Positions 6,627-23,735 of a stretch of DNA of 26,520 nt are shown here, in pieces. The notes below the pieces were generated by a model. That model had not been told where the DNA came from, made no database searches, and worked only from the letters and a program-made list of their open reading frames with translations. The DNA is from a virus. The position numbers and the translations under genes are program-made. Location of the stretch: the IMG/VR virus record IMGVR_UViG_3300031227_000348, positions 1 through 26,520 of that record. One strand, 5' to 3'. How positions within the stretch are numbered: the stretch's first letter is position 1; each line of letters starts with the position of its first letter.

Positions 6627-6866
6627 ATGAAGAAATCAGAAATACGAGCAATGATAAGAGAAGAATTAAACACAAGTAAGGAGTACATTGTCTGAGGTAT
6701 TCCAAGAGGAAAAGATGATGAGGAAGTTCTTTACACAAAAGCGAAAAGTGAAGGTGAAGCTAAAAAAATTGCTAAGTATTTGTCAGTAAAATTTGGTGCT
6801 AAAAAGACAAGAGTTCAAATTCTTGATTTGACAACAAAAATTGACTTTACAAAAGCTATCAATTAA
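6627..6866 (+). CDS. Small hypothetical protein with IREEL-type N-terminus
   Basis: This 79-residue protein is preceded by TAGGAGATATATT and ends at TAA 6864-6866. One TGA is read as Trp (YIVWGIPRG). The N-terminus MKKSEIRAMIREEL is an amphipathic helix containing I-R-E, similar in kind to the short leader peptides of nearby genes. The rest (DDEEVLYTKAKSEGEAKKIA, then TRVQILDL) looks like a compact alpha/beta protein found in phages without known function. Confidence 0.6.
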
Positions 6867-6879
6867 AGCGAAAAATATA

Positions 6880-7485
6880 ATGAAGACGATAAAGTTTCAA
6901 AAATTATTGAATGAGGGCATATCTGGTAGTAAATTAATTGTTGTTGATATACAACCAGCGTATGAAAAAGAAGTTAAAAGAATTAAAAGTAAATTCATTA
7001 AAGATTTGATAAATTTTAATGGTAATGTATTATATTTATATAACGGACCTGATATGGGATATCATGATGATGAAGGCGTAATTGAAAATTGAATTAGAGA
7101 AGAGACTGATGATTGAGATGTCGATTTAGAAAATATTGAGTTTGTTGAAAAAGGATATGGGTTCTTTCGTGATGTAATGGATGGAAATTATGATGAGTCT
7201 GATATTATCGAATTGATTGGCTGAATGATTAAAAATGACAAATATGATGTGAGAGATATCGATGAAGACGATTTGAAAAATATAATTGATGATGAAGATT
7301 TAATACATGAAATTCTAAATGAGAGAGTTTTTCTTGCTCTACCTCAATTTGATATTGATATATTAAAGAAATTTAAAGGTGCAAGTATATGTGGAGGCGG
7401 TAAAAATGAATGTTTAGCAGAGGTTCAAATTTTATTAGCGGCAATGAAAATAAAAACGAAAGTAATAAATAAGTATGTATATTAA
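6880..7485 (+). CDS. Cysteine hydrolase (isochorismatase-fold)-like protein
   Basis: I chose ATG 6880 rather than upstream TTG codons; the protein has 201 residues with three TGA Trp codons and no TGG. After a 12-residue leader (MKTIKFQKLLNE) comes KLIVVDIQPAYE, the usual first strand with the Asp of isochorismatase-like hydrolases. GYGFFRDVMDG sits in the position of the Lys/Arg loop, and near the C-terminus ASICGGGKNECLAEVQ carries a candidate nucleophilic Cys, followed by MKIKTKVIN. The order matches the cysteine hydrolase fold, though the middle is acidic and divergent. The substrate is unknown. The leader is nearly identical to that of the ADP-ribosyltransferase-like protein at 7782. It is followed 12 bases later by the FeoA gene; no shared pathway is shown by the sequence. 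Confidence 0.65.
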
Positions 7486-7497
7486 AAGAGAAGTACA

Positions 7498-7773
7498 ATG
7501 AAAAACAATGGACTTGGCAGGGGAAGGCGTTGCCACAGAAAAAACAGACGTGACGCTTATGTAGAGAATGGTGATAATTATCATATAGTTGGTTATTGTT
7601 GTGAGGATTGTGATTTACGCAAAAAGCTAATGAATTACGGGCTTTTTAGAGGCGAGGAATTTAAAGTTATAGGTAAGGCGCCTATGGGTGACCCAATAGA
7701 GATTAAGATAAATGGTTATCGTCTTTTTATTAGGAACAATGAATTGAAGAAATTAATTTTAAAGAAAATTTAG
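7498..7773 (+). CDS. feoA: FeoA-domain protein
   Basis: This 91-residue protein ends at TAG. Residues ~35-90 (YCCEDCDLRKKLMNYGLFRG, then FKVIGKAPMGDPIEIKINGY, then RLFIRNNELKKLIL) follow the FeoA pattern closely: L..LG...G..v.V...AP.GDPI.I...G..L.LR..E. FeoA is a small SH3-like cytoplasmic partner of the ferrous iron transporter FeoB; the same fold forms the C-terminal domain of DtxR-type regulators. The first ~25 residues are Arg-rich (GLGRGRRCHRKNRRD) and extend beyond a minimal FeoA. Four cysteines (12, 34, 35, 38 approximately) could bind metal, which is inference. No feoB is in the window. It sits between a cysteine-hydrolase-like gene and an ADP-ribosyltransferase-like gene, so it looks like host-derived accessory cargo. 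It has no Trp codons. Confidence 0.8.
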   Translation: MKNNGLGRGRRCHRKNRRDAYVENGDNYHIVGYCCEDCDLRKKLMNYGLFRGEEFKVIGKAPMGDPIEIKINGYRLFIRNNELKKLILKKI

Positions 7774-7781
7774 GAAATGAC

Positions 7782-8342
7782 ATGATAAAGACAGTTAAAT
7801 TTCAGAAATTATTAGACGAAGATGTAAAAATATATCATGGAGACAATCATAATACGAAACGTATAGATATCAAAATGATGATGCAACAAAACGCAAATAA
7901 TCAAGAAGGAATAGGTATATATTTTTCGGATGATATTAGCACAGCAGAACATTATGGTAGTAACGTTATTTCAATTGATATTAGTAAAAAAAACTTTGTG
8001 GAAAGTCGTGATCTAGCTAATTTACATATTAGTAAGCAAAAGTTAATATTATTACTAAAAGCAATGACAAAGATTGATAAAGATGAAATGTTCTATTATA
8101 TGTCAGATTACACAACGTTGATAGGACCTGATGATATAACTAATTCTACATATTTAAAGGTAGTGGATATGATACTCGACAATGAAGTACGTAATTTGCA
8201 AATTGAATTGGCTAGAATTATTGGTGTTAAATCTTTTGTGAAATTATGAAACAAAATAATAAAAATTGACGGAACATATCACCGTAATGGCTCGGATATT
8301 TGATATGCAGTTATTAACCCAGAATATAATTTAAACAAATAG
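7782..8342 (+). CDS. ADP-ribosyltransferase-like protein with propeptide-like leader
   Basis: This 186-residue protein starts 8 bases after the feoA stop and includes two TGA Trp codons (KLWNK, DIWYA). After the leader MIKTVKFQKLLDE come VKIYHGDN (the H of a YHG strand), EGIGIYFSDDISTAEHYGSN (the IYF strand and following helix) and VISIDISKKNF. The C-terminus is IWYAVINPEYNL. This is the layout of the H-Y-x ADP-ribosyltransferase superfamily, where YHG and GIYF bind NAD; I cannot assign the third catalytic residue safely. The leader matches that of the 6880 gene and ends in L-D-E, resembling the cleavable head-targeting sequence of T4 internal proteins and of the T4 Alt ADP-ribosyltransferase. 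A role as a protein packaged in the head and injected to modify host targets is inference. Confidence 0.65.
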
Positions 8343-8353
8343 GAGAAAATATA

Positions 8354-8680
8354 ATGAATAATGAAAATTTCAAAAAGTTATTAAGAGAGTACAAGCAGAC
8401 TGTAATTAAGGAAAGTTATAACGAAGGCAAATTAATTAAAGCATTAGCGAGTGATGCAGGTAACACCGTTGATCTTTGACTTGCAGTTGAATTAGATGAA
8501 TTTATGAATGGCGATAAACAAACTCAGTATGATTTAGTCAAAAATAGTTTTGATAATTATATTGAAGATGTTTACGATGATATTGAAGATGATTTACCAG
8601 ATGATATTGATATTGATAAATGATTAAATAAAAACAGAAAAAAAATAATCATTGCTATAATAAAAAAGATAAATAGATAA
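8354..8680 (+). CDS. Acidic hypothetical protein
   Basis: This 108-residue protein follows an AGGAGAAAATATA ribosome-binding site and ends at TAA 8678-8680, with two TGA Trp codons (DLWLA, DKWLN). The start MNNENFKKLLREYKQTVIKE is again a helix with an L-R-E step. The body is strongly acidic (DVYDDIEDDLPDDIDIDKW) and it ends with a basic tail NRKKIIIAIIKKINR. No known family recognised. The LxE-type start suggests it belongs to the same head-cargo-like group as the two preceding tagged genes. Confidence 0.55.
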
Positions 8681-9680: not shown

Positions 9681-11195
9681 ATGGGAAATACAGATTTAAG
9701 TTCTTTAACTAAAATATTACATGATACGTTAAACAAGAAACATAAAACGCAAAAGGTTGCATATTTTCTCGATGAAGATATTTATACTCCTACTGATGTG
9801 AGGGACTGGCTAAGCACCGGTTCCTCAGTTTTAGATTTGGCAGTGGCAAATGTTCCTAATGGTGGAATTCCTTATGGTCGTATCACCGAGTTACAAGGTT
9901 TAGAGGGTTCGGGCAAGTCGTTAATTGGTGCACACTTACTGGCATCAAATCAAAAACAAGGTGGGATATCAATTTATATTGATACTGAAACATCCGTATT
10001 CAGACCATTTTTGGAAGTGATTGGGGTTGATTTAAAGAAATTGTTATATGTTCGATTAAGTTTGGTTGAGGACATATTTGAAACAATTGAGAATATGATT
10101 GTAAAAGTTCGAGAATCAAATAAGGATATAAAATTAGCCATTCTAGTTGACTCTCTTGCAGGGGCAACCACAAAGGTTGAACAAGAAAGCGATTATGATA
10201 AAGACGGGTGGAGCACTGCAAAGGCAATTATTACATCTAAGGCAATGAGAAAAATTAATGATATGATTGGAACACAAAATATAGCGTTGATATTTACTCA
10301 GCAATTAAGAGTTAATCTAGGAGTTACATTCGGTGACAAATATTGTGTTGACCCATATACAACAAAAATCAAAGTAAGGTATAATAAACAAGTAGAAGAA
10401 ATAGTAATAGCAGAATTCGCAGAAAGATTTATAGGAATTAATGATTTCATAACACCAGAAATATATGATTTATCAACGCATGATATAGAAATTTATGGAA
10501 AAAATCAAAAAACAGGAAAAGATTGTTACAATTCAATAAAAACTTTTGTTGTCAAGCCCTCTGTTGAAACATATTGGACAGATGGGAAACTTAATGGAAC
10601 AAATAAACATACAATTATTGAAAATAATAATAATATTTGCTTAGAGGATCATAAGGATTTTTCAAAAGTGAATAAAAAAATGGAAGTTGTTGATTTTGAA
10701 ATAGATGATAGTCACAATTATTATGCAAATGGTAGGTTAAATCATAACACCACAAGTGGTGGAAAAGCTCTTGGGTTTCATTCAAGTGTTCGTATCAGAC
10801 TTGACAAATCAACAAAAATATATGACAAACGAAAAGACTGTATTGGAATGAATATCAAGGCGAAAATTATTAAGAATAGATTAGGGCCGCCATTAAGAAT
10901 AGCAGTATTTCAAGTTTATTTTGACAGAGGAATAGACGACTTAAGCTCTTGGCTACAAGCATTAAAAGATAGAGATATAATCACTGTTGCAGGAGCGTGG
11001 TATTCAATAACACTTGAAGATGGTACAGTTAAGAAATTTCAATCAAAAAATTGGGGCGAAATTATGTCCGACAAAGCAATGTATGAATACATATATGGAT
11101 TATTATGTGATGCGTATATTATGAAATATAAACCGAAAGAAGTTATTGACATTGATGAAATTGTAATATCAGATGAAGCAATTGAAGGCGATTAA
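9681..11195 (+). CDS. uvsX: RecA/UvsX recombinase interrupted by a mini-intein
   Basis: The 504-residue precursor yields a recombinase of about 369 residues after splicing. GLEGSGKS (residues 73-80) is the Walker A motif. KLAILVDSLAG (151-161) is the Walker B strand and ALIFTQQLRVNLGVTFGDKY (202-221) corresponds to the L2/DNA-binding region. The extein resumes at TTSGGKALGFHSSVRIRL, matching RecA's TxGGxALxFxxSxR. The intein occupies residues 222-356. The protein drives strand invasion in recombination-dependent replication. All six Trp codons (five in the extein, one in the intein) are TGG. AGGAG lies 13 bases before the start; the 5' nuclease gene begins 3 bases after the stop, implying coupling. 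Confidence 0.9.
   Translation: MGNTDLSSLTKILHDTLNKKHKTQKVAYFLDEDIYTPTDVRDWLSTGSSVLDLAVANVPNGGIPYGRITELQGLEGSGKSLIGAHLLASNQKQGGISIYIDTETSVFRPFLEVIGVDLKKLLYVRLSLVEDIFETIENMIVKVRESNKDIKLAILVDSLAGATTKVEQESDYDKDGWSTAKAIITSKAMRKINDMIGTQNIALIFTQQLRVNLGVTFGDKYCVDPYTTKIKVRYNKQVEEIVIAEFAERFIGINDFITPEIYDLSTHDIEIYGKNQKTGKDCYNSIKTFVVKPSVETYWTDGKLNGTNKHTIIENNNNICLEDHKDFSKVNKKMEVVDFEIDDSHNYYANGRLNHNTTSGGKALGFHSSVRIRLDKSTKIYDKRKDCIGMNIKAKIIKNRLGPPLRIAVFQVYFDRGIDDLSSWLQALKDRDIITVAGAWYSITLEDGTVKKFQSKNWGEIMSDKAMYEYIYGLLCDAYIMKYKPKEVIDIDEIVISDEAIEGD
10344..10748 (+). other. UvsX mini-intein (cis-splicing, 135 residues)
   Basis: The intein begins with Cys (TGT 10344) right after the extein residues FGDKY and ends with the typical GRLNHN (Asn codon 10746-10748), followed by extein Thr. 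Both junctions restore the RecA sequence GVTFGDKY-TTSGGKA. The pre-C-terminal stretch VVDFEIDDSHNYYANG is the usual block F. At 135 residues there is no room for a homing endonuclease, so it is a mini-intein. It sits in the L2 DNA-binding region, a part where most interruptions would be lethal unless removed. Confidence 0.9.
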
Positions 11196-16454: not shown

Positions 16455-17099
16455 GTGAAAGAAGAAAAATTAAGGGAAATAATTAAAAAAGAAGTTAAAA
16501 GCATGTTAAAGGAAAGCTCTTTAAGTAGAGTTTGGTGGCATAATCATGAACATGACTGTGGAGCTATAACGGCATATCGAGCGGCAAAAGATTGCGGTAA
16601 TGGCGAGAAATATACTCACAATGACAATAAAAAAAGAAACAAATCCTTACTAGCAAAATTGCAGAGCAAAGGATATGGTGTTACAAAGTTAGTTGGCAAA
16701 AGTAATGAAGGCGGAAAAATAGCAACAGAAATGTCATTTTTTGTGGTTGATTTAGAAGATTTCGGCACACTTGAGAAGGATTTAAAGAAATTTGGCGAAG
16801 CATTTGAGCAAGATTCGATATTATTTATTCCTAGAAAAGCGATAGAAAATGAAGCACAAGCATATTTGGTTGAAACAACTCACTGTTCAAATGCTTGGGT
16901 TGGATATGGTAAGAAAATGATATGGGAAAAAGGCAAAATAGGTATTGCAAGCAAAATTTACACATCTTATGTTGGTGGTAGACCATTTATATTTGAGACG
17001 GTTGAGAGTGATTTAATTAAACCTCCTGGAAATGGTTATGGCTGATGGGCATTACATACTATAGCGAAAAAAAATTGGCAAGATATAGCGGACGATTAA
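16455..17099 (+). CDS. Conserved hypothetical phage protein
   Basis: This 214-residue protein starts with GTG four bases after the DHH gene. The leader MKEEKLREIIKKEVKSMLKE is a helix ending in L-K-E. The body contains WWHNHEHDCGAITAYRAAKD, then NKSLLAKLQSKGYGVTKLVG, SFFVVDLEDFGTLEKDLKKF and EFEQDSILFIPR-like sequence (FEQDSILFIPRK). I associate this pattern with a widespread phage protein of unknown function. Six Trp codons are TGG and one TGA, with TGA TGG side by side at 17043-17048. Under the standard code the last 17 residues would be lost. No catalytic motif assigned. Confidence 0.65.
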
Positions 17100-17133: not shown

Positions 17134-17685
17134 ATGAAAGTTTACAAAGGTATGTTATTACCAAAATACTATGACAATTGAAAAGTATATCATGGCAAAA
17201 CGAAACGATATTTTTACACTCCAGTAAAAAAACTATTCGGCAATGTTTGATTAACTATATATTATAAAAAGAATACACAATTTTATCGTAGAAAAGCAAT
17301 AGAATTTTTAATGAATTACGTTTCGATTGCAATTAATGAAGTAACAAGACTAGGTGACAAAACTTATTTAGAAGAAAAAAATATATCAATATTAAATGGC
17401 AGGAATACGTTATGAATTAATTGCTATTCAAAACAAGATAATACGTATATTGGCAATCCATACAAAGTAATGAAACTAATTGAAGATAAGGGTATTACAG
17501 AGTTTTACGGAGATGGATTGAATGATTTTGCAATAGTAGGATACAATCGCAAAGACAACAAATTATATCACTGACACAATTCTAATTTAATGGAAATAAA
17601 AACAACTGTAAGCCCAACAATCGAAAATATACAAATAATAGCAAAACAAATCAACGCAGAAATAGTGCGACAAAAAAGTAAATAG
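17134..17685 (+). CDS. Hypothetical protein
   Basis: A 183-residue protein hidden from standard-code gene finding by four TGA codons (DNWKV, NVWLT, TLWIN, YHWHN); there is no TGG. It is preceded by AAGAGG and ends at TAG just before the AGGAG of nrdJ. The first part is basic and rich in Tyr (YHGKTKRYFYTPVKKLFGN, then TIYYKKNTQFYRRKAIEFL). No family recognised. Its TGA-only use matches nrdJ behind it rather than the gene before it. Confidence 0.6.
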
Positions 17686-17694
17686 GAGAACTAT

Positions 17695-18564
17695 ATGTTT
17701 ATGAATGACTTTCAAAAAGAAATTTGAGTACAAAATTATAAATTACCTTCGGAAAAAAAAATACAAGATACATGATTAAGAATAGCAAAAGCAACCGCAG
17801 AGGTTGAATCTGACAAGAAATATTGAGAAAATAGATTTTATAATTTATTAGAGGACTTTAAATTTGTCCCAGGAGGACGAATTAATGCTAACATTGGCAT
17901 TCCAGATAGAAAAGGAACGACATTATTTAATTGTTATGTTCATAATCCAAAAGACATTAACTTTCCAGACCCAGATTCAATTGAAGGAATTATGGAAATG
18001 GTAAAGCGTCAAGCTCTCACGTTAAAATCAGAAGGTGGATATGGAATGAACTTTAGCTGAATTAGACCAGCAGGAACGTATATTAACGGCATAGGTGCAA
18101 GGACACCAGGCGTATTAAAGTTTATGGAAATGTGAGACAAATCATCTGAAATTATTACTATGGGAACTACAAAACGTTTTGGCAAAAAGGAAAAAAATGA
18201 AAAAGTCAAGATAAGAAAAGGTGCCCAAATGGGAGTTTTGAATTGTTTCTCGGAAAGTACTGAAATATTAACGAGCATGGGATGAATGGATATAATTGAT
18301 ATTATTAATGAAACGTTAGATGGCAAAAAAATACTAGCATTGGATAAAAACGGAAACCCTCACGAAATATATAATCCAATTATAAAAGAACCAGAACAAT
18401 TATACGAAATTGAAACAGAAAACGGCGCAATTGTACAGGTTACTGCTGATCATAAATTTGAAGTTTATAATATTAATACAAAAAAAACCTATCTAAAAGC
18501 AATTAATAATATTGATATCAATACAGAAATGATTACAACGATAGAAATTCAGGATGAAAAATAA
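17695..18564 (+). CDS. nrdJ: Ribonucleotide reductase class II, piece 1 + split N-intein
   Basis: This 289-residue polypeptide joins NrdJ residues 1-183 to a 106-residue N-intein and stops at TAA 18562-18564. The extein shows YWENRFYNLLEDFKFVPGGR, then FNCYVHN (C80, first redox cysteine), GGYGMNFSWIRPAGTYINGI, TPGVLKFMEMWDKSSEIIT and KIRKGAQMGVLN. Here the reductase sequence breaks, to resume in the next piece with [10 protein letters not shown]. All six Trp codons are TGA, and several fall at classic Trp sites of the family, fixing UGA=Trp. NrdJ makes deoxyribonucleotides from ribonucleotides using adenosylcobalamin. AGGAG before the ATG shows independent initiation. The peptide alone cannot be active. 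Confidence 0.93.
18244..18561 (+). other. Split intein 1, N-terminal half (106 residues)
   Basis: It begins at Cys (TGT 18244) after GAQMGVLN and carries block A (CFSESTEILTSMGWMDI) and block B with the TxxH motif (GAIVQVTADHKFEVYN). It ends with a stop instead of continuing to a C-terminal half. By residue count it has 20 acidic and 9 basic residues (net about -11), the opposite of its partner at 19605-19739 (net about +7). Charge complementarity of this kind is how natural split inteins find each other. Confidence 0.9.
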
Positions 18565-18628
18565 AAATTATTACAAAAAAATGTAGCATCCAGATATTTA
18601 TATGTAAAGACGAAAGGAGATTTACAAT

Positions 18629-19654
18629 ATGGAAGAAATTAAAATGTTGCAGTATAACCTATTACTTGATAGGAAAATATCAAAAAATAATCATAATGAA
18701 TATGTTGTGTGCCCAACTTGTAAGAAAAATATTACTTTTAACGGATGTACTTCACATTCAAAAATACATTCAGACATATTAATTGCAAAGAAAGCATTTA
18801 TAAAAAACAAATATTTATTTCAAAATTATTGTTTTTGTGGAAATGAAATATTTGTTCCCGAAAATATTAAAGATGCTAGACGAAAACATACTCATTTTTG
18901 TTCATCAGAATGTTATAATATAGCAAAAAATAAAGTTAAAAATTATTACAAAAAACAGCAAATGAAAAAAAAGTGTATAATTTGTGGTAAAGCATTCAAT
19001 GCTAATCATAAAGACACTAAAACATGTTCATATAATTGTTGAATAAAATTATTATCAATAAAAACAAAAAATGTATGAAATAATAGAACTGATATTGAAA
19101 TTTCAGAAAAAATTTCTTCCGGATCATTGGGTAAAAAAGGATGCAAAGCGTGAAACAAAGGTCTTACAGGAAATGACTATATGAAACATTACATAGATGA
19201 GAATGGAAACAATAGTTTTTATGAAGCATTATCAAAAAATGACAAATGGTTTAGAAAAACAAGTATTGAAAAAAAATTTGAAGATTTATTGGAAAAATTA
19301 AATGCAAATTATCAATATAGTTTCTTTACACAGAATTCGCAATTTGATTTTTTAATTTCAACAAATAATTTCGTTTATATAATAGAGTTAGATGGAGATT
19401 ATTGACATAAATCAAGAAGATTATTTCCAAACGAAACTGACAGGGAAATGAAAAGATTAGAGGATAATCTTAAATCGAATAAAATAAAAAATATAATTAA
19501 TACTAAAAAAAACTGAATTGTATTGAGAATTTGAGAATACGATATAAATAACAACTTTGGTATTATTGAAGAATGAGTTAAAAAATTACTAAAAGAGGAA
19601 AAAAATGACGAAACAATATACGAAATTAAAAAGAATTACTCCAATTGAAGTTAA
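18629..19654 (+). CDS. Vsr-like homing endonuclease inside split intein 1
   Basis: A 341-residue protein with its own GAAAGGAG site, readable only with eight TGA as Trp (one TGG). The N-terminal half has three Cys-rich zinc-finger-like motifs (CPTCKK...HSKIH; YCFCGN...HFCSSEC; CIICGK...CSYNC). Next is a NUMOD-like SGSLGKKGCKAWNKG at ~165-177. From ~210 a Vsr/PD-(D/E)XK-like nuclease domain has FDFLI (D240), VYIIELDGDYWHKS (E253, D255, H260), a D271 helix and IVLRIWEYDI. It matches the endonuclease family described for fractured genes with split inteins (Dassa and co-workers, 2009). It would cut nrdJ alleles that lack the insertion. Its 3' end overlaps the start of the C-intein reading frame by 50 bases. 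Confidence 0.88.
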
Positions 19655-19739
19655 TAAATCATATGACTTTGCGGTTAAAGATAGTCACAGAATAATTGCC
19701 AGGAAAAAGAATACAAATATTGGCATTTATACATCAAAT
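19605..19739 (+). other. Split intein 1, C-terminal half (45 residues)
   Basis: It contains [16 protein letters not shown] (block F) and ends GIYTSN before extein Cys (TGT 19740). The penultimate residue is Ser, not the usual His, as in the DnaE split inteins, whose C-halves end in ASN. It is basic (10 Lys/Arg against 3 acidic), complementary to its acidic partner. Confidence 0.88.
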
Positions 19740-21407
19740 TGTTGACATCCCGATATCGAAGAATTTATTATAGCAAAACAAACGCAGGGAAGATTAACAA
19801 AATTTAATTTATCAGTAGGAATTACAAAGGGTTTTATGAACGCTGTTCAAAATAATGAAATGTGAGAATTAAAATTTCCAGATACTCAATTTGAAAAATA
19901 TAAATCTGAGTGAAATGGTGATTTAGAAGAGTGAGAAGTAAAAGGCTATCCAGTGAATGTTCACAAGAAAATTAAAGCCACAAAATTATGAGATATAATC
20001 ATGTTCTCTACATATAATAGAAATGAACCAGGAGTATTATTTTTAGACTTGGCAAATAAATTAAATACAATACCGAAAAGTGAAACATTACAAACCTCGA
20101 ATCCCTGCGTTACTGGAGATACTATAATTAGTACAGATAAGGGCGACATTACAATAGAAGAATTAATCAAGAATGGTATTAATAATTACAAAGCTTTGAC
20201 ATACAATACAAAAACCAATAAAACAGAATGAGAAAATATTGTTTGGGGAGATAAGACTAGAGATAACGCAGATATTATTCAAATTGAACTTGAAAATGGT
20301 AAAATTTTGAAACTTACGCCAGACCACAAGGTGTGAACTGAGAATAGAGGATATGTAAAGGCATCAAATTTGACAATACATGATGAATTAGTTACAAATA
20401 AAATGTCTCAAGAATATATTAAAAGAATGGAAGCAATTAAAAAAATAAAAATAAAAAAAATAAGTATAATTGAAAACGAAAATGTTTATGATATTACTAC
20501 AACTAAAAATCACAATTTTTTTGCAAACAACTTATGTGTTCATAATTGCGGGGAGGTGATTATGTCAACTGGCGTATGTAATTTAGGTTCATTAAATCTC
20601 GTAAAATTTATAAAAAAGAACAAATATACAAACGATATATATTTTGATTGAGAAATGTTTAGTGAAAATGTTGAAACTGCTGTAAGATTTCTTGATAATA
20701 TTAATGATATATCAACAACACCTTTGCCAGAATATGACAGATCTTTAAAAGATAAGAGGCGAATTGGTCTAGGAGTTATGGGACTTGGTTCGATACTACT
20801 GATGTTGAGATATCGTTATGGTTCAGAAAAAGCAAAAGAGTTTTGTGAAAAATTATGAAATTTAAAATCATCAACTGAAATTTTAACTTCGGCGAAACTT
20901 GGAAGAGAAAAAGGTTCATTTAATCTATTTAATAAAGATGATTATTTTAATACATATTGGTGAAATAATTTACAAATTAGTGAAGAAACAAAAAAGAAAA
21001 TTAAAGATGTTGCTTGTATGAGAAATAGTCATAGATCGGCGAATGCTCCCACGGGAAATTGTGTTAGGAAAAACACAAAAATTCAAACAAAAGATGATAT
21101 AAAATCAATTGCTCAAATCTTTAAGGAAAACAAAATTGACATATTAAAAGAAGAAAAAAATCAATTTTTTCTTCCAATAAAAACAATAGAGGTTAAAACT
21201 TTGAATGGATATAAAAAAATTATTGGACTTTATATAAATAATAATAATAAAGTATATTCCATTAAAACAAACAATAATAATAAAATTGAAGGAACAAACG
21301 AACATAAAGTCTTAGTTAAAATTGATAATAAAACAGCAAAATGAATTGAATTACAAAATTTAAAAGTAGGAGATAAAATTTTATTAGAAAAGGGACGCTC
21401 ACATTAA
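19605..21407 (+). CDS. nrdJ: NrdJ piece 2: C-intein 1, extein, cis-intein 2, extein, N-intein 3
   Basis: A 600-residue polypeptide with its own GAGG site. Residues 1-45 are C-intein 1. Residues 46-167 are NrdJ ([46 protein letters not shown]) and 168-314 an internal intein. Residues 315-485 are NrdJ again: [18 protein letters not shown] with the catalytic Cys and Glu of NPCGE and the second redox Cys, then GLGVMGLGS and [11 protein letters not shown]. Residues 486-600 are N-intein 3, ending at TAA 21405-21407. Eleven Trp codons are TGA and two TGG. The piece must splice at both ends and in the middle to contribute to an active enzyme, so the three reductase cysteines come from two different translation products. 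Confidence 0.92.
20106..20546 (+). other. Contiguous mini-intein 2 in NrdJ (147 residues)
   Basis: It begins at Cys (TGC 20106) after TLQTSNP and ends LCVHN before extein Cys (TGC 20547). Blocks are visible: [20 protein letters not shown] (A), [20 protein letters not shown] (B, with TPDH) and [17 protein letters not shown] (F). It has no endonuclease. Removal restores NPCGEV, so the insertion lies exactly in front of the catalytic cysteine. One TGG and two TGA codons occur in it. Confidence 0.92.
21060..21404 (+). other. Split intein 3, N-terminal half (115 residues)
   Basis: It begins at Cys (TGT 21060) after ANAPTGN and ends at a TAA. Block A is [20 protein letters not shown], and block B-like sequence is [14 protein letters not shown]. 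It is basic (24 Lys/Arg against 13 acidic, net about +11), whereas its partner at 22458-22598 is acidic, the reverse of split intein 1. Confidence 0.88.
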
Positions 21408-21446
21408 TATTTATACACATAAAAAAATTAAAGGTAGGTGCTTTGA

Positions 21447-22457
21447 GTGAAAAAGAAAAGAGGAAAGTACAGAAGTTATAAAATGAGAATATATGAGGAA
21501 AACTCAAAAGAAGTTGCCGATAAATTATGACAAGATTATTTGTCAAAAATATCTCAAAATTTAAATGGTTTTATAAAAAGATATGGTGAAGAATTGGGCA
21601 AAAAAAAATATAATTCATTTATTGAGAAGTCTAAACATACAAAGGCTAAATACATTAAGAAATATGGTGAAATTTTGGGTAGTAAAAAATGAAACGCTTA
21701 CATTCAAAAGAAAAAAGAAACATCTAAAAGAAGTATTGAATATTGATTAAAAAAATATGATGACGATTATGAATTGGCAAAAATTGCTCAATCAAATCAT
21801 CAAAAAAGAGATATAGACTTCTTTATTAAAAAATATGATAAAGAACTTGGTGAACAAAAATATAATCATAAGATAGAAAAACAAAGAAAATCAATAAATG
21901 AGCATTACAAGCTTCCCGGCGCCAAAAAAGCTCATGCGGTATCTATAAAAAAAATGATAAAGAAATATGGTAAAGAACTTGGTGAACAAAAATATAAAGA
22001 ATATTTATTAAAAACATAACCAAGTATAATTTGAAAGCGATCATCTGTTTCAAATGTTTCGCAAAAATTTTGTAAAATGCTTGAAAATAATATTAATAAA
22101 GAAACAAAACAATATATAAAATATGCAACAAAAAATGATGAATGATGGATTTATGACTCTAATAACAAAAGATATTTTTTTTATGATTTCACAATAATTA
22201 AACATGATAATAAAAAGATAATAGAATTTAATGGAGATTTTTGACATGCAAATCCAAATATTTATACCGAAAATTGAAACCATAAAGTATTAAACACAAC
22301 GGCAAAAAATTTATGAAAAAAAGATGAATATAAGCATAATTTAGCTCGAAAAAATGGTTTTGATATATTAATTATATGAGAAAAAGAATGAAGAGATAAT
22401 AAAGAAGACGTTATTAAAAAAAGTATGAATTTTATAAATAATATTAAGGAGAAATAA
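21447..22457 (+). pseudogene. Vsr-like homing endonuclease inside split intein 3, cut by in-frame TAA
   Basis: One reading frame runs from GTG 21447 to TAA 22455-22457, broken only by TAA 22017-22019. The part before (190 residues) holds about five repeats of the type IKKYGEELGEQKY (near 21570, 21655, 21745, 21820 and 21955), a DNA-binding array style known in phage endonucleases. The part after holds the nuclease domain: KKIIEFNGDFWHANP, then NLARKNGFDILIIWEKEWRD, the same Vsr-like core as the 18629 gene. Ten TGA and one TGG are used. A fresh start at ATG 22077 could still express the nuclease domain alone, but without a ribosome-binding site. I read this as recent decay by a nonsense mutation; a sequencing error is the alternative. 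The final stop abuts the ATG of nrdJ piece 3 (TAAATG). Confidence 0.75.
21839..21997 (+). repeat. Two 27-base direct repeats in the second endonuclease
   Basis: Bases 21839-21865 and 21971-21997 are identical, 132 bases (44 codons) apart, and encode the same KELGEQKY unit. They reflect the tandem protein repeat and would favour recombination or slippage in this decaying gene. Confidence 0.85.
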
Positions 22458-22598
22458 ATGGAAATTATAAATATTGAAAATTTAGATCTAATTGAAGAAG
22501 AAATTCAATCAATTAAATTAATTAAAGATGATACATACGATATAGAAGTTGAGGATGTTCATCATTACATTTTAAGTAATGGAATTATATCACATAAT
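22458..22598 (+). other. Split intein 3, C-terminal half (47 residues)
   Basis: It contains DDTYDIEVEDVHHYILSNG (block F) and ends GIISHN before extein Thr (ACA 22599). It is acidic: 12 Asp/Glu against 2 Lys, net about -10, complementary to basic N-intein 3 and opposite in sign to C-intein 1. Confidence 0.9.
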
Positions 22599-23735
22599 AC
22601 AGGAATTTATGCTGGCATAGTATCTGGTGGTATCGAACCTGTATTTATGAAGCAATATACACGTTGATCAATTGTTGTGGATAATGATAAAAGAAAATTG
22701 CTAGAGAAAGGTATAAAATTTCCTGATACATCATTACAAGAATGATTTGAAACTGATGTTTTTAAATTTAGTAAACGTGGTGATGAACAGATTTTAAGAG
22801 CAACGATTGATGATACAAATTATGAAATTGATAAAAATAGAGGATTGATAAAGGCAACTGATGTAATTGATTATGGTTATAAATGACTAAAGGATAACTT
22901 ATCAGAGGAAGAGTTTGAAGCATTGGATGAATATACTTTAGGAACTACAACGACATTAACGGTAGATGAACATATTGATATTTTAAATATCGTAAGTCAC
23001 TATACTGATATGAACTCTAGCAAAACGGTAAATTTGCCAAATGATTACCCATATAATGATTTCAAAAAATTATATATGAATGGATGAGAAAATAACATAA
23101 AAGGCTTGACGACATATAGAGCAGGTACTATGACTGCTGTATTAGAAGAAAAGAAAGAAATTGTAAAATATCAAACTGAATTGGAGAAAATGTTTATAGC
23201 TGCCAATGGTAATGTTATTGAAGAAAATGTAAAAATTCCAACGGAATACTTTTCCAAAGGATATGTTATAAAAGATAGAAATAAGAAAAAATGATATTTT
23301 AATGTTGCTTTCGCTGATAGTTCATGTAAGAAACCATTTGCTTTATTTATTACAACAAATGGAAGAACAAGAGGCGAAGTTGCTGATAATGTTATAGAAA
23401 CCATGGAAGTTCTGCTTAGGAAAAATAAAATCAGTGAAATTTTAATTGATAGACAAAAAGAAAAATGTGCAAATGAGAGCAATATAAACAAAGTTGCAAG
23501 GTCTATCAGTATGGCACTAAGACATAATATATCTATAGTTGATATTGTTAACGTATTGGATACTTGCCATGATGGGTTTGCCACTGTATTGTTTGCAACT
23601 AAGAAAATTTTAAGCAAATTTATACAAGATGGAGCAAAAATAAAAGGAGAAAAATGCCCTAATTGCGATAGGCGGACTTTGATTTACCAAGAGGGCTGTG
23701 TGATGTGCAGTAATTGTTCGTGAACTAAATGTTAA
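22458..23735 (+). CDS. nrdJ: NrdJ piece 3: C-intein 3 + C-terminal reductase
   Basis: A 425-residue polypeptide with AAGGAG before ATG 22458. Residues 1-47 are C-intein 3. Residues 48-425 start TGIYAGIVSGGIEPVFMKQY, which continues the SAPTGT-type motif broken in piece 2 (APTGN-TGIYAG). They include NLPNDYPYNDFKKLYMNGW and GLTTYRAGTMTAVLEE, and end with a zinc ribbon (CPNCDRR...GCVMCSNCSWTKC), as usual for class II reductases. All six Trp codons are TGA; the one near the C-terminus would remove the last three residues in the standard code. The three exteins add up to about 854 residues. The stop overlaps the start of a 39-residue frame. Confidence 0.93.

Follow-up and report, generated by a model that had tools for sequence, protein, structure and literature searches.

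Probable head-targeting leader peptides, expanded and lineage-specific in form, on predicted cargo proteins of an uncultured T4-like phage

The internal proteins IPI, IPII and IPIII of phage T4 carry a 10-residue capsid-targeting sequence that is processed by gp21 (PMC9026906), and the annotation of IPII shows removal of its 10-residue leader (GenBank X04567). T4 Alt, an ADP-ribosyltransferase, is likewise packaged and injected (PMC9026906). The ejection proteins of phiKZ and SPN3US are cut by gp175 and gp245, respectively, at the site motif S/A-x-E (PMC9026906, PMC10052503). Finally, gene context and MuF fusions have led to the prediction that ADP-ribosyltransferase and Nudix proteins are carried in myovirus heads (PMC9503650).

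Here we analysed a window of 26,520 nucleotides, a 26.5 kb fragment in IMG/VR (positions 1-26520) whose source is an uncultured T4-like phage. Five of its genes begin with short amphipathic leaders ahead of unrelated bodies (Table 1), as an earlier note on this DNA had claimed. Like the T4 internal proteins, these are unrelated small proteins with a short N-terminal leader and a glutamate-ended site with hydrophobic P3; a gp21-type protease is encoded in the head module (here that of a relative), and the cargo slot is variable. In contrast to T4, the leader sequences are different, two classes occur in one genome, TGA is read as Trp, and approximately 23 leader genes are found in approximately 111 kb of a relative compared to a handful in T4. 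The mechanism is known from T4; what differs here is the several lineage-specific tag forms and the many more proteins.

The other described systems resemble the locus in part. As in T4 Alt (MELITELFDE), an ADP-ribosyltransferase-like body follows a leader of the same pattern in the gene at 7782 (MIKTVKFQKLLDE), but this body is short, its ART-PolyVal match is weak, and its sequence is not Alt-like. In the T4 gp24 propeptide (MAKINELLRE/STTT, the slash marking the site), LLRE/S is nearly identical to the window leader ends and to the capsid site of a relative (LIKE/STTT), although gp24 is a shell vertex protein and not an internal protein. Many head proteins with glutamate-ended propeptides and a divergent gp21 are features in common with phiKZ and SPN3US, whereas the motif there is S/A-x-E, which, going by the papers' descriptions, sets them apart. 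The predictions of PMC9503650 concern the same enzyme classes and myovirus heads; they are based on neighbourhood and fusions, and a leader criterion was not found in the sections consulted. The leader strings were not found in the open-licence papers searched, and they may have been described elsewhere.

TGA is read as Trp in the window phage and its relatives. Coding coverage of the window is 0.95 with table 4 versus 0.68 with table 11, and Trp is in the majority at 39 of 59 TGA-aligned positions (standard-code homologues, positions with at least three homologues, window phage and relatives together). Under this code, all five leader ORFs are intact. The lineage is represented here by the window and four contigs, G001, G002, G031 and G033. 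ARAGORN found a tRNA gene in none of these five sequences, so the host may itself read TGA as Trp.

Four of the leader genes (6627, 6880, 7782 and 8354) are located in one slot flanked by a gene for a 134-aa protein (6212) and gp32. The fifth (16455) is located downstream of a gp41-type helicase gene and a DHH-like gene. No head genes were found within the window. Elsewhere in the window, UvsX (9681-11195) has an intein-like insertion (504 aa versus 368 aa in G001), several intein or homing-endonuclease segments split the ribonucleotide reductase gene (17695-23735), and a conserved 183-aa protein (17134-17685) matches the Thoeris inhibitor Tad6 with an E-value of 2e-4, below the cut-off. PADLOC detected no defence family.

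Table 1. Leaders, leader-bearing genes and one leaderless neighbour in the window
Feature	Coordinates	Strand	N-terminal sequence	Remarks
Leader of 6627, long class	6627..6683	+	MKKSEIRAMIREELNTSKE	Thirteen genes of a close relative start alike (MKKSE[ILV]R.. or a variant)
Leader of 6880, short class	6880..6915	+	MKTIKFQKLLNE, then G	Beyond-chance pairing with 7782; homologue L035:1240 has MIKLKSILTE, then Q, at the same place
Leader of 7782, short class	7782..7820	+	MIKTVKFQKLLDE, then D	Nine residues in common with the 6880 leader, five by different codons
Leader of 8354	8354..8413	+	MNNENFKKLLREYKQTVIKE, then S	Likely cleavage after residue 20; second site kept in three orthologues
Leader of 16455, long class (GTG start)	16455..16514	+	MKEEKLREIIKKEVKSMLKE, then SSLSR	E20 and SSL[SA]R conserved across four further phages with differing leaders (alignment A4)
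Leader gene, function unassigned, 79 aa (TGA=W)	6627..6866	+		Orthologues in G001 (84% identity) and L048 (46%)
Leader gene, alpha/beta protein, 201 aa	6880..7485	+		33% identity over full length to L035:1240-1854
91-aa gene inside the slot, without leader, outside the tagged set	7498..7773	+	MKNNGLGRGRRCHRK	
Leader gene, ADP-ribosyltransferase-like, 186 aa	7782..8342	+		Weak PF18760 match
Leader gene, function unassigned, 108 aa	8354..8680	+		Orthologues in G001 (54% identity) and G002 (48%), same slot before gp32
Leader gene, S-adenosylmethionine-lyase-like, 214 aa	16455..17099	+		PF23780 match

The likeness of the leaders was assessed by comparing the first 20 residues of all pairs of the 28 N-termini in the window (BLOSUM62). 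The 6880/7782 pair scored 50, a value that neither 2000 composition shuffles (at most 44) nor 2000 sets of internal windows (at most 48) attained. These two leaders share their nine identical residues across 11 positions, and since the codons differ at five of the nine, the likeness exists at the protein level, indicating selection on the peptide and not a recent DNA copy. Pairs among 6627, 8354 and 16455 were individually weaker and only moderately unusual in the same test, in which a gene at 195 in the baseplate region also proved similar to the start of 6627. The pattern MKxxKFQKLLxE gave a single match in an unrelated contig, where no ORF starts; we regard it as chance.

Two leader classes can be told apart by sequence: the short class reads xKFQKLLxE and the long class KSE[ILV]RxMI[KR]EE..LxE. 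The earlier note had listed 6627 and 16455 as weaker cases; they instead represent the second, longer class (KSE[ILV]R..), which is the commonest in the relatives. The KSE-class leaders have codons 3-5 (AAATCAGAA) in common beyond what codon usage would lead one to expect, and a tandem arrangement is frequent. This codon sharing may reflect recent copying or an extra RNA constraint.

An (L/I)xE-type site ends the leader in four of the five window genes (LLNE, LLDE, VIKE and MLKE). The 6627 leader contains MIREE without a clear second site, and a clear second LxE is missing in several KSE-class leaders (6627, and 23325 and 36558 of G033). The residue following the 7782 leader is D, not a small residue. 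The L-x-E ends originally proposed stand for 6880 and 7782 but need correction for 8354. In its G002 orthologue (L012:7755), the LLRE site at residue 12 is replaced by LLKK, and a second site about 10 residues downstream is conserved across the three orthologues (VIKE/S, MLSE/G and LLVE/S). With the first LxE lost and the second kept, a site after LLRE is probably wrong, and we ruled out a leader ending there because that site is not conserved. Cleavage of the 8354 product would probably occur at VIKE/S, after residue 20.

These ends were compared with the capsid protein. In capsid-protein ORFs of relatives, NQA[KR]xLxxE is mostly followed by A or S, and the E falls at residue 57-64 in 43 of the 47 matched (the remaining four are short at the N-terminus). 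This is close to residue 65, the known cleavage position of T4 gp23. The site in the G033 capsid protein is NQARELIKE followed by STTT. The leader ends resemble it: VIKE/SYN (8354), MLKE/SSL (16455), LLNE/G (6880), and LLFE/G and MINE/G in G033. Scaffold N-termini in the capsid-gene relatives read (M)xDLLKE, then A.

A search with the helicase led to two relatives: G001, a syntenic table 4 contig of 70.8 kb (79% identical), and G002, of 39.6 kb (73%). The content of the slot varies among relatives. In G001 it holds the 6627 and 8354 orthologues together with what is left of the 6880 gene, a stretch of 41 codons. This remnant (L002:3376-3498) is C-terminal, 71% identical and directly follows the 6627 orthologue, a case of gene decay. 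In G002 the slot holds the 8354 orthologue and a protein behind MYKFSFKALLKE that is acetyltransferase-like on our reading of its sequence.

The head module was reached through the sheath first and then by extending exact matches outwards from the capsid gene, which yielded G031 and G033; the latter shares its sample of origin with G001 and overlaps G031. G033 encodes terminase, portal, prohead protease, scaffold and capsid proteins, with leader genes interleaved. The protease and capsid genes were identified by search, the other three by sequence likeness and gene order. The protease matches PF03420 (E 6.4e-26) and contains two in-frame TGA codons (gp21-type). Its gene lies on the reverse strand of G033 (IMGVR_UViG_3300023256_000014), at 22130-22753 when counted along the reversed contig. 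The prohead protease that the targeting reading calls for is thus present in a close relative: the head module is that of the relative (helicase 79% identical) and lies outside the contig of the window itself. The first contigs scanned gave no PF03420 match, which we do not read as absence because they are without a head module. In G033, an intein domain interrupts the gene of a leader-bearing AAA/zeta-toxin-like kinase (L277:15743-16897, minus strand). In Microcystis phage Mel-JY01 (L279), the isolate closest to the window lineage, the genes at 60276, 60923 and 62056 follow one another past the helicase region and encode leader proteins related to each other (..ISDRVWH[LV]T); the one that was scanned had no Pfam match. 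Mel-JY01 has further leader genes at 52405 and 96164, and Alishewanella phage Slicko01 has one at 50313; the predicted leader ends in these isolates are LLQE, ILGE and ALSE.

Leaders do occur on many other genes of the lineage, and they cluster near the head genes. In G033, G031 and G001 together, a leader is present on 19 of the 69 genes of the head-neck-sheath stretch and on 4 of the other 91 (Fisher p 5e-5). Of 160 true starts in the same contigs, 23 fit the leader patterns, compared to 2 of 587 internal-Met pseudo-starts; the enriched patterns were written partly after inspection of the relatives. The short motif alone is marginal (13 of 69 in the head stretch versus 7 of 91 in the rest, p 0.052), so that the clustering argument depends mainly on the KSE class, the pattern of 6627.

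T4 itself served as a control. The anchored motif matched 10 of 258 T4 ORFs, five of which are head proteins (IPII, IPIII, Alt, gp24 and gp2; p 7e-5); it missed IPI and gp22. No match was found to ModA, ModB or NudE, of which ModA and ModB are non-packaged ADP-ribosyltransferases. T4 gene 61.1 (AF158101 18966-19130) starts with MKTFKEFIKE, then D, resembling the internal-protein leaders, and this start predicts an additional T4 internal protein.

Among the cargo bodies, the product of 16455 gave the clearest assignment. It matches PF23780 with an E-value of 5.8e-11 (42.9 bits, over the curated cut-off of 28), and is S-adenosylmethionine-lyase-like by this match. Homologues were found in 26 phage records. 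The homologues from G001 and from phages of Alishewanella, Microcystis and Campylobacter have leaders that vary in sequence and length, each closing with an E directly before SSL[SA]R; the junction in a Lak phage homologue is NELNE, then KSLNR. We regard 16455 as the best single case: the conserved junction is strong evidence but not conclusive, because the E could belong to the body.

The 7782 protein had been labelled ADP-ribosyltransferase-like. It does match PF18760 (ART-PolyVal; E 6e-4), but weakly (20.9 bits, under the curated cut-off of 31.2) and over residues 16-62 only; its AlphaFold model (pLDDT 33) was unusable. In G004, an independent gene with the leader MITLKSLLCE matches PF18760 with an E-value of 1.6e-6. 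The hydrolase-like label of 6880 was confirmed by neither profile nor fold search: Pfam, PHROG and PDB sequence searches gave no match, and for its AlphaFold model (pLDDT 62) no significant PDB fold match was found. As a single query, the protein (P0002) had no relatives in IMG/VR or among GenBank phages; its one full-length homologue, in L035, was found solely by local tblastn across leader loci. D23, K91 and C178 are identical in this homologue, and the body is possibly an isochorismatase-like hydrolase with a D-K-C triad.

The same bodies occur behind other leaders. The 6880 body sits behind MIKLKSILTE in L035, and the 6627 body behind MISLKSLLKEE in L048, within a row of leader genes. This row (L048:4731-6980) has six consecutive leader-like starts: MIKLNNLNE, MIKLKQLLTE, MILLRDIMAE, MIRLSDIF, MISLKSLLKE and MIRLTKILKE. 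A pattern search of IMG/VR for MIKLKxLLxE yielded at least 92 sites in at least 80 viral loci, nearly every one of them at the start of an ORF and ahead of unrelated bodies; as the set was picked by pattern, it shows breadth and not an unbiased rate. When the listed proteins were aligned, only the leader was kept. Among 23 such contigs tested, 16 contained PF03420 and 14 contained gp23. Domains behind leaders include ADP-ribosyltransferase, NUDIX plus cell-wall hydrolase, tRNA nucleotidyltransferase and zeta-toxin/kinase.

Taken together, the sequence data support a T4-type head-targeting leader system that is expanded here and lineage-specific in form, and from it we infer packaging, cleavage and injection. 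The T4-type reading of the earlier note passed the tests run, the T4 control among them. As a whole, the explanation that the window leaders are T4-type capsid-targeting propeptides has a strong likelihood. Of its parts, that the leaders act as head-targeting tags is very probable, that they are cut by a gp21 homologue is likely, and that the leader-bearing enzymes are injected is favoured with less assurance. The amphipathic N-terminal helix would bind the prohead core during head assembly, and a gp21-type protease, whose gene is seen in the relative, would cut after the terminal [L/I/V]xE, just as it would be expected to cut its own capsid protein at LIKE/S. The freed bodies would remain inside the capsid; of these, the S-adenosylmethionine-lyase-like and ADP-ribosyltransferase-like enzymes at least would enter the host with the DNA, where injected enzymes could weaken restriction or further host defences and reprogramme the cell. 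Other phage lineages would place their own type of leader, MIKLKxLLxE for example, on cargo sets that overlap.

The injection step could be questioned, since the leader proteins might enter the prohead as structural or core components similar to T4 gp67 and gp68, to be cut up or left behind and not injected as effectors. Many leader genes are indeed small, lack a recognisable domain and lie between the genes for portal and capsid, the position of 67, 68 and 21 in T4, and the gene at the gp67/68 position of the relatives itself bears a long leader. We nevertheless consider this unlikely, because several cargoes are enzymes without an obvious structural role (S-adenosylmethionine-lyase-like, ADP-ribosyltransferase-like, NUDIX, tRNA nucleotidyltransferase and zeta-toxin/kinase) and T4 Alt provides a precedent for packaging and injection.

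Two further readings deny the head role itself, and we give each of them only a slight chance. The shared starts might be a by-product of gene shuffling, in which cassettes are inserted behind a copied 5' segment comprising the ribosome-binding site, the start and the first codons. The common codons of the KSE class (AAATCAGAA) and its frequent tandems would fit, as would the variable slot and the 6880 remnant retained in G001; yet 6880 and 7782 have the peptide in common with different codons, the same kinds of cargo follow different leaders in L035 and L048, the E/S junction of the S-adenosylmethionine-lyase-like family is constant while its leader varies, and the motif picks out head proteins in T4. 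Alternatively, the leaders might dock at a site other than the head, such as tail or baseplate, membrane or replication complex. The slot in the window lies between baseplate-type and gp32/UvsX genes without adjoining head genes, and one leader gene is directly 5' of the tail sheath gene. However, the T4 alt gene is also distant from the head genes, leaders are concentrated around the terminase, portal, protease and capsid genes, and their ends match the conserved capsid-protein site.

We retain the T4-type targeting reading for the window. Whether it extends further is a more tentative matter, to which we assign somewhat less than an even chance: a general head-loading signal across aquatic T4-like phages, whose lineage forms (MIKLKxLLxE, KSE[ILV]RxMI[KR]EE..LxE and xKFQKLLxE) are swapped onto moving cargo, could allow dozens of injected proteins per phage to be predicted from the genome alone, including S-adenosylmethionine-lyase-like and ADP-ribosyltransferase-like ones. 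If the targeting reading is true, a short N-terminal sequence would mark those uncharacterised proteins of environmental T4-like phages that are delivered at entry, prior to phage gene expression, and would predict an injected S-adenosylmethionine-lyase-like protein as well as the extra T4 internal protein. It would also separate packaged from merely expressed enzymes, as with Alt versus ModA and ModB in T4.
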